This document shows positions 13,456-17,224 of a stretch of DNA of 64,000 nt, piece by piece. The first letter of the stretch is position 1. Each line of letters opens with the position of its first letter. Under the pieces are notes generated by a model. The model saw only the letters and a list, made by a program, of their open reading frames with translations, was not told the DNA's origin and ran no database searches. The DNA is taken from positions 62,001-126,000 of the forward strand of contig WGNG01000005.1 in assembly GCA_016124675.1 (NCBI GenBank). The letters are read 5' to 3'. The position numbers and the translations under genes were made by a program. Origin of the DNA: Alphaproteobacteria bacterium (GTDB lineage Bacteria; Pseudomonadota; Alphaproteobacteria; Caulobacterales; Maricaulaceae).

Positions 13456-13510
13456 CGGCGCGCGGGAAGGTTAACGCCACAGTCAAACTCCAGAACGGAG
13501 CGTGGCGCTG

Positions 13511-13921
13511 ATGCGCTCAGACTACATTCCGCTTCTGTCCATGCTGCGCGATGCGATGGGCTTTCACGCCGCGCGCCAGCGCACGCTGGCCCAGAACGTC
13601 GCCAACGCCGACACGCCGGGCTTCACCCCGTCTGACCTCTCGCGCGCCTCGTTCGAGCAGGCGCTGGCGGGACGCGCGCGCCCGAGCCCCGGCCTGCAGC
13701 TCACCGACGCGCGCCATATCGCCGGCCAGGCGGGCGCCGGCGTGCGCTTTCGCGCCGAGCGCACGCCGGACAGCGCGACCACCGCCAACGGCAATTCGGT
13801 CGTGCTGGAAGAGCAGATGGCGCGCGCCAGCGAGACCCGGATGAATTACGAAACAGCCGTCAGCCTGTATCAGAAAAGCCTGACGCTGCTGCGCATGGCC
13901 GCGCGCGGCCCCGGCGCCTAG
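13511..13921 (+). CDS. flgB: Flagellar proximal rod protein FlgB
   Basis: A 136-residue rod protein, part of the rod driving the filament through the periplasm. The family N-terminus LLSMLRDAMGFHAARQRTLA is followed by the rod signature QNVANADTPGFTPSDL (about 28-43). The C-terminal helix contains MNYETAVSLYQKSLTLLRMA. ATG 13511 follows GGAG at 13497-13500; GTG 13502 lies too close to that site. It begins the flgB-flgC-fliE operon and has no signal peptide, as expected for type III export. Confidence 0.94.
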   Translation: MRSDYIPLLSMLRDAMGFHAARQRTLAQNVANADTPGFTPSDLSRASFEQALAGRARPSPGLQLTDARHIAGQAGAGVRFRAERTPDSATTANGNSVVLEEQMARASETRMNYETAVSLYQKSLTLLRMAARGPGA

Positions 13922-13945
13922 GTCACTGACAAGGAGGTCTGATCC

Positions 13946-14359
13946 ATGGACCGCTCCCACGACGTCCTGCACATCTCCGCCTCGGGTCTGCGCGCGCAAT
14001 CGGCGCGCATGCGCATCATCGCGGAAAACCTCGCCAACGCCGATTCCGCCGCCCAGACGCCCGATGCCGACCCATATCAGCGCCAGATCCCGGTGTTCAG
14101 CGCCGAGCTCGACCGCGCCACCGGCGCGCAGATGGCGCGCATGACCGATGTGCGCCTCGATAATCGCGAGTTCCGCTCGGTCTACCAGCCCGGGCACCCG
14201 GGCGCTGACGACCAGGGCTATGTGCGCTACCCCAATGTGTCCTCGCTCATCGAGCTGATGGACATGCGCGAGGCCCAGCGCAGCTATGAAGCCAACCTCA
14301 CCATGATCGAAGGCTCGCGCCGCATGCTGGAACGCACCCTCGATCTGTTGCGCCGCTAG
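13946..14359 (+). CDS. flgC: Flagellar proximal rod protein FlgC
   Basis: A 137-residue rod protein. It has the N-terminal helix LHISASGLRAQSARMRIIAE, then NLANADSAAQTPDADPYQRQ with the rod signature, and a C-terminal helix with LIELMDMREAQRSYEANLTM typical of FlgC. A strong AAGGAGGT sits eight bases before ATG 13946. The spacing to flgB (24 bases) and fliE (10 bases) shows one transcript. Confidence 0.95.
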   Translation: MDRSHDVLHISASGLRAQSARMRIIAENLANADSAAQTPDADPYQRQIPVFSAELDRATGAQMARMTDVRLDNREFRSVYQPGHPGADDQGYVRYPNVSSLIELMDMREAQRSYEANLTMIEGSRRMLERTLDLLRR

Positions 14360-14369
14360 GAGCTAGCCC

Positions 14370-14675
14370 ATGGATCTCGCCGCACTCCGCGCCTATGCCC
14401 AGGCGGCCCAGGCCGCCAGCGGCGCCGCCGCGCCCCCGCCTGCGCCCACAGGCGAGGCGGGCGGCTTTGCAAGCCTTGTCACCGACGCGGTCAACGCGCT
14501 GCAGTCGAGCGTCTCGGCTGCTGAAACCCAGTCAAGCCAGGCGGTTCTGGGCCGCGCGGAACTCACCGATGTCGTCACCGCCATGGCGGCCGCCGAAGTG
14601 CAGCTGGAAACCGCCATCGCCGTGCGCGACCAGGTGATCCGTGCCTATCAGGAAATCATGCGCATGCCGATCTAG
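14370..14675 (+). CDS. fliE: Flagellar hook-basal body protein FliE
   Basis: A 101-residue FliE, the adaptor between the MS ring and the rod. The N-terminal third is alanine/proline-rich. The C-terminal part holds the family sequence with LGRAELTDVVTAMAAAEVQL and the final RDQVIRAYQEIMRMPI. GGAG is eight to nine bases upstream of ATG 14370. The operon seems to end here: the next frame has no binding site and non-flagellar content. Confidence 0.95.
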   Translation: MDLAALRAYAQAAQAASGAAAPPPAPTGEAGGFASLVTDAVNALQSSVSAAETQSSQAVLGRAELTDVVTAMAAAEVQLETAIAVRDQVIRAYQEIMRMPI

Positions 14676-14677
14676 GC

Positions 14678-14983
14678 ATGGCGCGGTCGTCTGATACCGT
14701 CCGCCTGAGTGCTGTCGTCCGGAAATTATATGGAAAGAAACGCAGGCCGGGTGATCTTGACGCGCGGCGCTGGCAGGCGATCGCCCAGGCTGTGAACTAT
14801 CGGCCCGCCGATGTTCTCCAGCGGGTCCAAGAGCTTGTCGACTCCATGCTGGCGGAACGGGTCGCAGTGGCCGAGGCCGTGGCCAGTCTGCAAGGCAGTG
14901 TGCGCGGGTATGTCGAGCAAGCAGCTGAACTTATTGAGGCGAACGCCTTGCGCATCGCCGGCCGCCTTCGAAAGGCGCCATGA
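14678..14983 (+). CDS. Unknown small protein, possibly the tail of a HipA-like kinase
   Basis: An open frame of 101 residues begins two bases after the fliE stop but lacks a ribosome binding site. The stretch ARRWQAIAQAVNYRPADVLQ and the following helices resemble, by eye, the C-terminal helical region of HipA-family kinases (type II toxins). The kinase core and a HipB antitoxin are absent. It directly precedes the collapsed Anbu genes, so I think it is a remnant of a larger gene. It could instead be a small independent protein. Confidence 0.4.
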   Translation: MARSSDTVRLSAVVRKLYGKKRRPGDLDARRWQAIAQAVNYRPADVLQRVQELVDSMLAERVAVAEAVASLQGSVRGYVEQAAELIEANALRIAGRLRKAP

Positions 14984-15109
14984 ACCTTCAGCCCGGCGCA
15001 CGCCCAGACACTGGCTAGCCCCCGCCCGAACCGCGCCGCACTGCAACATTTTGGTTGCCGTGACGCCTGTGTGACGCCCACACTCTCCCTCTGGCAGAGG
15101 CAGGGCGTC

Positions 15110-15648
15110 ATGATTTTTGATGAGATGACGGGTCACGGGGGCGTGGAGGAGGTCCGCGACAGCTATCGCGCCCTGGCGCAGTGGCTGGCGGATTCCCCGC
15201 CCGATCTCCTGGAGGCGCGTTCGCGCCAGGCGGAGTTCTTCTTCCGGCGCATGGGCGTCACCTTCGCCGTCTATGGCGAGGCCAACGCCAGCGAGCGCCT
15301 GATCCCGTTCGACATCGTGCCGCGCATCTTGTCGGCATCCGAATGGCGGCTGCTGGAAGCGGCGAGCTCAAGTATGGCAAGCCCATTCTGGACCGGGCCC
15401 TGCGCACGGACACCCCGCTCATGGAGGCGGTCAAGCTGGGCCTGATCTTGTTTGATTCAACCTTGCGGTCGAATCTCGGCGTCGGCCTGCCCTTCGACAT
15501 GATCACGCTACGCCCCGGCACGTTCAAGGGCGCGCAGCGGCGCATTGAGACCGACGACCCGTATTTTCGTGAGCTGGGCGTGCAATGGTCCGACGCGATC
15601 ACCAAGGCCCATCGCGCCATGCCCGCGCCGCCCTGGGACATCGGCTAA
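15110..15648 (+). pseudogene. Fusion remnant: ATP-grasp start joined to Anbu protease end
   Basis: From ATG 15110 to about 15360 the frame encodes the N-terminus of a circularly permuted ATP-grasp protein (VRDSYRALAQWLADSPPDLL, RMGVTFAVYGE, RLIPFDIVPRIL, SEWRLLEA). At about 15357-15366 the reading shifts by one frame. The second frame, up to TAA 15646-15648, encodes the C-terminus of an Anbu proteasome-type protease (GELKYGKPILDRALRTDTPL, FDSTLRSNLGVGLPFDM, RIETDDPYFRELGVQW). In intact genomes these are the first and last genes of a four-gene operon with alpha-E and transglutaminase-like genes between them. One deletion explains the joint. No functional product is expected. Confidence 0.85.
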
Positions 15649-16051: not shown

Positions 16052-16186
16052 ATGAAATTCCTTCTGACAGCCGCTATCGCTTCGCTGACGATTTTTGTCG
16101 CCAGCTGCAACACCATCGCCGGCGCCGGCCGCGATACCCAGCGCGCAGGCGAGGCCGTGGAAGAAGCGGCTGAAAACAACAGCTAG
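16052..16186 (+). CDS. Entericidin A/B family lipoprotein
   Basis: A 44-residue entericidin-like lipoprotein. The signal peptide MKFLLTAAIASLTIFVAS ends before Cys19. The mature part (NTIAGAGRDTQRAGEAVEEA) has the family's NT-x-GAG-D pattern. In enterobacteria entericidins affect envelope stability under stress; here the role is unproven and there is only one copy. AAGGAG lies about ten bases before ATG 16052, and a strong terminator follows, so it is a single-gene transcript. Confidence 0.88.
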   Translation: MKFLLTAAIASLTIFVASCNTIAGAGRDTQRAGEAVEEAAENNS

Positions 16187-16249: not shown

Positions 16250-17224
16250 TCACAGCCCGGGGGATGGGAGGCCGGGGTGAAAGCCGATATGGGACGGCTC
16301 CTCGGCCACGCGCCGGGGACGGTGCGGCGAGTCCTCGCGGCAGGCGAGCGACGGCGCGCCGGGATCAATGCGGATCGTGCGCGCCGGTCCGTCAATGGTG
16401 ATCACTGCGTGCTGCAACAGATCAAGGCCGAGCACCATGGCCGGGCGGTCGCGCCAGCCCAGCGCCCGGAACATGTCCACATCGGCCGTCGGCGCTGTCA
16501 TGGCCGGCACGCACACATCGCCAAAGCGCACCCGTTCAAGCCGGGCGCGCTCTTCCACCGCGGCGCTGGGCGCGGCGCGCGTGATCGCCCCGATCCGCAT
16601 GCGCGTCACGGGTTCACGCGCCAGCTGGCGCGCCAGAACCGAGTTGATCAGGGTGAAGCCCGACCCGGTATCGATCAGCACCATGACCGGTTCGCGCACG
16701 CCGCGCACACTGGCCTCCATCATGGCCACGCCGTGCACTGGATCGATGCGCCCGTGGGCGCCATCCGGGGCGGACACATCGAACGCGATGTCGCCTGCGG
16801 GAAAGTCGAGGCGCACGCGCTCGCCCGCCAGCGCATCAAGGCCGATCAGCCCCTGAATCTCGCCGCCCGCCACATCGGCCACGACCGAGTAGAGGCCGTC
16901 CGCACGCGCCGGTCCGAAGCGCATGTCGGCGATGGCGAGCCGCTCCTCCAGCGTTTCCGCCGTCAGGGTCTGGACCGGGTGCAGATGCTCGCGCGTCGCG
17001 ATGAAGCCCAGCGCCTCGGCCACGGGCAGGGCCAGCGTGGTGTGGCTGGCGCCGGTATCGATCATGAACGGCCAGGGGCCCTCGCCGGCGATCGTCACAT
17101 CCATCAGGAACTGACCGGTGGAGGCGCGCGCCAGCGGCAGGCGCACGCCGCTCTCTGCGCCCACGGCGTCATCAGCGGCGTAAAGGCTCAGGGCGCTCAG
17201 CAGGATGGCCAGCATGATGCTCAT
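16250..17224 (-). CDS. Exported retropepsin-like aspartic protease, tandem
   Basis: A 324-residue protein with a signal peptide (MLAILLSALSLYAADDAVGA) and two retropepsin-like domains. The first catalytic triad is FMIDTGASHTTL (Asp56), the second VLIDTGSGFTL (Asp185). Each domain has a later hydrophobic-hydrophobic-Gly element (GLIGLD near 126-131, VLGLDLL in the second). It is probably a periplasmic protease; substrate unknown. ATG 17224 and ATG 17215 are both possible starts: GAGGG is closer to ideal spacing for 17215. Confidence 0.8.
   Translation of the reverse strand: MSIMLAILLSALSLYAADDAVGAESGVRLPLARASTGQFLMDVTIAGEGPWPFMIDTGASHTTLALPVAEALGFIATREHLHPVQTLTAETLEERLAIADMRFGPARADGLYSVVADVAGGEIQGLIGLDALAGERVRLDFPAGDIAFDVSAPDGAHGRIDPVHGVAMMEASVRGVREPVMVLIDTGSGFTLINSVLARQLAREPVTRMRIGAITRAAPSAAVEERARLERVRFGDVCVPAMTAPTADVDMFRALGWRDRPAMVLGLDLLQHAVITIDGPARTIRIDPGAPSLACREDSPHRPRRVAEEPSHIGFHPGLPSPGL

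Follow-up and report, generated by a model that had tools for sequence, protein, structure and literature searches.

A short stretch of the alphaproteobacterial genome G000 is, with high confidence, the non-functional scar of one deletion of ~3.47 kb in a four-gene Anbu operon. It lies within the window, the stretch of 64 000 nucleotides analysed here (G000:C2:62001–126000), which belongs to a 2.88-Mb genome assembled in 23 contigs and 99.95 % complete. At this place the start of a gene for a circularly permuted ATP-grasp protein is followed by the end of a gene for Anbu, a proteasome-type protease, as a preliminary description made from the sequence had proposed (Table 1). The biology of the scar is that of ordinary gene loss, producing an ordinary deletion pseudogene, and it provides a textbook case of operon loss through one deletion, caught before visible decay.

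Table 1. Features of the remnant locus and its surroundings (positions within the window)
Feature	Position	Strand	Evidence
Flagellar genes (flgB-like, flgC, fliE), which fix the upstream side of the site	13502..14675	+	Flg_bb_rod in the first; gene order shared with G011 and G013, next to their operons
Second remnant: 3′ end of a HipA-type gene, past fliE and before the Anbu remnant	14678..14983	+	61 % identity to HipA C-terminal end
Presumed leader/promoter, DNA just 5′ of the operon	15026..15109	+	Inside a block of 82.8 % identity with G011 (15026–15362)
5′ remnant of circularly permuted ATP-grasp gene, codons 1–84	15110..15361	+	91 % amino acid identity to G011 residues 1–85
Deletion joint, 2 bp (GG) fitting both G011 flanks	15361..15362	+	Ungapped comparison with G011
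3′ remnant of Anbu gene, last ~95 codons and stop	15361..15648	+	PDB match 5loy_A; 86 % identity to G011 Anbu 152–245
Aspartyl-protease-like gene, downstream	16250..17224	-	PF13650, E 4e-22

The remnant and its intact parent operon

Neither the head nor the tail fragment alone matched Pfam or NCBIfam at E 0.1, and a search of the fragments against PHROGs was also empty, so that comparison with kin and with PDB sequences was needed for identification. The Anbu tail (query 15346–15648) matched 5loy_A with E 8.5e-28 (query residues 6–98 against 147–240), as well as 5nyj, 5nyf, 5lox and 5nyw with E values down to 2.3e-18. The ATP-grasp head (query 15110–15370) matched the beginning of a 472-residue protein of G011, a genome of the same genus. 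At full length this G011 protein belongs to PF14403/PF04174 (PF14403, 553.6 bits). The head fragment has no Pfam match because the Pfam ATP-grasp domain spans residues 71–448 of the G011 protein and so begins only at residue 71, with the window fragment stopping at about residue 85; the domain itself was not found in the head. The tail has none because the complete G011 Anbu also lacks any Pfam or NCBIfam match at E 0.001. The family search of the two halves that had been recommended was thus fruitless in Pfam and NCBIfam and successful through PDB Anbu sequences and the ATP-grasp proteins of kin.

The ATP-grasp frame (15110+3k) and the Anbu frame (15361+3k) differ, and the one-base frame change that had been placed at about 15360 coincides with the joint. 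The ATP-grasp frame is open only to 15445, ~83 bp beyond the joint, and the Anbu frame has neither a start of its own nor a catalytic end. The catalytic residues of Anbu are given in PMC6376114 as Thr1, Asp17 and Lys32/33; only residues from about 152 on are left in the window. With the N-terminal end of Anbu deleted, the tail counts as a leftover of the gene rather than as a working member of the family.

Relatives were searched in a set of 61 genomes (60 relatives and G000) at a threshold of E 0.001 or better. The Anbu tail was matched in 28 of these and the ATP-grasp head in 39, the weaker head matches being other ATP-grasp genes of the family. Intact ATP-grasp, alpha-E, transglutaminase-like and Anbu genes, in this order, were found in G011, G013 and G008, which are of the same genus and have the closest operon type, and the first three operon proteins of G011 carry the expected Pfam families. 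These intact operons establish that both fragments stand in operon order and on the same strand, in agreement with the preliminary description. The operon of G011 and G013 directly follows the same flagellar genes as the window remnant, genes to which we assign the names flgB, flgC and fliE as an assumption; in G008 the same-type operon and the flagellar block are on different contigs. Among named relatives, the closest operon type is that of Glycocaulis profundi, Alkalicaulis satelles and Oceanicaulis MAGs; as two of these are classified in Maricaulaceae, the organism of the window probably belongs to the same family. On the downstream side of the remnant there is a small lipoprotein-like ORF (16052–16186), presumably entericidin-like, which G013 and G011 likewise have 3′ of Anbu and for which G009 has three neighbouring matches (L146 1925–2426).

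According to PMC6376114, the Anbu operon consists 'predominantly' of four genes whose order is conserved; PMC5666114 uses the words 'frequently co-occurs'. A survey of named Anbu loci agrees with this picture. It took the best 80 of 385 relatives, of which 12 loci with less than 4 kb upstream were unscored; all four genes were present at 66 of the 68 scored loci, and at the threshold applied each of the other two was short of a single recognisable partner. The earlier statement that Anbu loci are four-gene operons therefore holds for nearly all scored named loci and fails for four of the 15 genomes of the genus, in which Anbu has no adjacent partners.

Size, joint and probable mechanism of the deletion

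The left match between the window and G011 stops at 15362 and the right match starts at 15361; in G011, G013 and G008 the head and the tail give two separate matches, ~3.5 kb from each other, which meet at the joint. The register offset, equal to the deletion size, was 3467 bp against G011, 3475 bp against G008, 3468 bp against G013, 3461 bp against G. profundi and 3469 bp against Oceanicaulis HLUCCA04. The range for these five kin (3461–3475 bp) falls inside the single deletion of 3–4 kb that had been predicted from typical gene sizes. One illegitimate (non-homologous) deletion inside the standard four-gene operon would have removed the ATP-grasp gene from about residue 85, the whole alpha-E gene, the whole transglutaminase-like gene and Anbu residues 1–151, with the reported catalytic residues falling within the lost part. 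The leftover ends would then have been joined out of frame, giving a scar that is presumably without function.

The joint aligns with G011 without gaps and without unmatched bases on either side. When 20 000 pairs of breakpoints were drawn at random in the two G011 genes, 18 % had an overlap of at least 2 bp, and no exact repeat of at least 8 bp was common to the 120-bp stretches around both G011 ends. A look for short repeats at the deletion ends had been recommended, and on these results a repeat-mediated deletion was rejected. Since an overlap of this size is unremarkable and a repeat of at least 8 bp was not found, the comparison with kin makes an illegitimate deletion the more probable mechanism and recombination between repeats the less probable one. 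The joint was absent from all of the other 14 same-genus genomes in which it was sought (one genome per species).

Wrong joining of the operon ends during assembly would produce the same picture, and the G000 genome is in 23 contigs. Such an artefact is very unlikely, as the 120-bp stretches at the G011 ends hold no exact repeat of at least 8 bp that could mislead an assembler, and the missing middle was found on no other contig of an assembly of this completeness. The deletion may also be an event of a single isolate.

The short interval between fliE and window position 15648 holds two gene remnants. The HipA-type ORF runs from 2 bp past the fliE stop to 126 bp short of the ATP-grasp start, and the window has ~320 bp extra relative to G011 at this remnant. 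Its identity with HipA extends over 83 aa, residues 353–435 of a 440-aa reference HipA. This full-length reference has HipA_C and Couple_hipA; the ORF itself gave no Pfam HipA match, for the N-terminal or the C-terminal domain. Of the eleven plasmid records that matched the ORF, ten have HipA annotated at the matching place and one is unannotated. The ORF is the sole match to the reference HipA in G000, and it was matched in four of the 61 genomes; within the genus it was confined to G000, with no match in the other 14 genomes. A remnant so near to the ATP-grasp start suggests that the spot has lost DNA more than once, and with it a succession of at least two deletions, or one tied to the HipA-type insertion, comes into consideration. 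This course of events is improbable for the Anbu joint, which has no unmatched bases on either side and is most simply explained by one event.

Loss of the system in G000 and age of the remnant

The operon DNA of G011 matched G000 only at the two flanks and in three short weak matches, and by this search the transglutaminase-like gene between alpha-E and Anbu was missing. There were no matches in G000 to alpha-E (PF04168) or to PF14403. The ATP-grasp query matched only the 85-residue fragment, and the Anbu tail, as a protein query, matched only itself; the result for a second Anbu rests on this tail and on the G011 gene as a DNA query. A search of the rest of G000 for another copy of the system, by operon DNA, protein and Pfam profiles, found none. 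From the lack of a match to alpha-E, PF14403 or a second Anbu it is concluded that the organism has lost the Anbu system. Given that searches of this 99.95 %-complete genome turned up neither alpha-E nor an ATP-grasp core nor a further Anbu, the remnant is most likely a pseudogene.

The remnant has no stops in its 84 ATP-grasp codons or its 95 Anbu codons. For the ATP-grasp piece, dN/dS between G000 and G011 was 0.053, compared with 0.074–0.228 for G011 against other copies; the corresponding values for the Anbu piece were 0.123 and 0.081–0.258. Against its remaining kin, G000 gave 0.117–0.292 for the ATP-grasp piece and 0.085–0.169 for the Anbu piece. The highest of these values, 0.292 for the ATP-grasp piece of G000 and G. 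profundi, exceeded that of every pair of intact copies (highest 0.228). Changes unique to G000 were few, with one nonsynonymous and one synonymous in the head and two and five, respectively, in the tail. Synonymous differences between G000 and G011 were large (pS 0.48 for the head and 0.44 for the tail), which indicates that most of the divergence built up while the genes were still in use.

The absence of stops and the low dN/dS against G011 indicate that the loss is probably recent, with the low power of 84 and 95 codons. The claim of a recent event is thus favoured, and tempered by the shortness of the pieces and by the value of 0.292 with G. profundi. The low dN/dS could alternatively mean that a fragment is still in use. 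A functional fusion or short gene, in which the head or a frameshifted ATP-grasp–Anbu product is made and used, would fit the lack of stops, the low dN/dS against G011 and the retention of the presumed operon leader. It is scarcely credible given that the frames mismatch, that the ATP-grasp frame closes so soon past the joint, that neither the ATP-grasp domain nor the catalytic end of Anbu survives, and that the joint occurs in none of the other same-genus genomes compared.

Operon states and orphan Anbu genes in the genus

Across the 15 genomes of the genus, G000 included, the intact operon was present in five (G007, G008, G011, G013 and G014), Anbu without adjacent partners in four (G001, G009, G010 and G012) and the scar in one (G000). 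The remaining five (G002–G006) had no Anbu match, and two of them, G002 and G004, have ATP-grasp and alpha-E. The alpha-E family PF04168 and PF14403 occurred in the same ten of the 15 genomes.

G012, a single-contig genome, encodes a complete Anbu of 246 residues with 95 % identity to that of G011. This is preceded by only the last 50 residues (224–273) of the transglutaminase-like protein (L141 8748–9716), and no match to ATP-grasp or alpha-E was found in the genome. Within a 19.5-kb stretch, this 969-bp block alone matches the operon loci of G011, G008 and G. profundi. Some genes further 3′ match the HLUCCA04 locus, but in that genome they are found 5′ of the operon and point the other way from Anbu. 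An earlier operon site may therefore have been where the block now lies. By contig coordinates it is ~1.65 Mb from the flagellar genes of G012, where the aspartyl-protease gene directly follows fliE. An ancestral loss shared with genus neighbours was considered and rejected; the arrangement in G012 differs, with an empty flagellar site and an Anbu block elsewhere, and its history is therefore separate. Quartet sites in the flagellar block numbered 39 for G011+G012, 30 for G000+G012 and 17 for G000+G011. The support is weak and the branching order accordingly tentative, so that the flagellar site of G012 may have been emptied or may never have been filled.

No partner genes were found in the 16-kb stretch around Anbu of G001, G009 and G010, in which ATP-grasp and alpha-E are on other contigs or ~770 kb from Anbu. 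In G001 these two genes and a transglutaminase-like gene make up a separate operon of three genes, the third being assigned by sequence and position. A tree of Anbu, which took in the short broken row of G025 with its internal stop and left out the G000 fragment, placed G001, G009 and G010 (L148, L146 and L147) in one clade adjoining the operonic G007 and G014, and grouped the Anbu of G012 with that of G011. Among G001, G009 and G010, dN/dS for Anbu was 0.126–0.249, and in three pairs with G007 or G014 it was 0.238–0.356. The G012 gene gave 0.064 against G011 and 0.055 against G013. Pairs of operonic genes gave 0.087 (G007–G014), 0.115 (G011–G013) and 0.171 (G008–G011). By these values the orphan Anbu genes are under constraint, which may be somewhat relaxed in the three-species clade of G001, G009 and G010.

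In the wider family, all that is left in G025 is a broken Anbu tail directly next to a transposase gene of rve type, which we take to be IS30-like, near a contig end (L194 10471–11502). G046 (L035) has a close ATP-grasp head (60 %) and no Anbu match, and so the opposite state, with ATP-grasp kept and Anbu absent, exists too. The cases of partial loss were found with the Anbu tail as query, by which losses removing Anbu itself would stay invisible. In view of this bias and of G046 as a counter-case, a one-sided pattern of Anbu kept and partners lost is not claimed.

A tentative suggestion, to which we give rather less than even weight, is that the operon repeatedly sheds partners in this genus and that Anbu is sometimes retained under purifying selection, once in G012, where the single contig gave no ATP-grasp or alpha-E match, and once in the clade of G001, G009 and G010, where the sole ATP-grasp and alpha-E genes are distant. 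If true, Anbu would have a function that needs no operon partners. Orphan Anbu genes are a more useful lead than the scar, as they allow testing of whether Anbu works without its operon, and the intact, orphan and deleted states in one genus form a natural series for the roles of Anbu and its partners. Literature searches of little reach found nothing on orphan or lost Anbu, and the 2017 Anbu paper names the finding of physiological substrates as a future task.

At both of its ends the remnant agrees with the known Anbu operon in gene identity, gene order and strand, and G011 and G013 have the operon in full at the corresponding site; in the window, by contrast, no more than 84 codons from the N-terminal part of the first gene and ~95 from the C-terminal part of the last survive. 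The partial losses in kin (G012, G025 and G001/G009/G010) resemble the scar in that partner genes are gone and Anbu or its tail remains. Their breakpoints differ from those of G000, however, and G012, G001, G009 and G010, unlike G000, keep a full-length Anbu.
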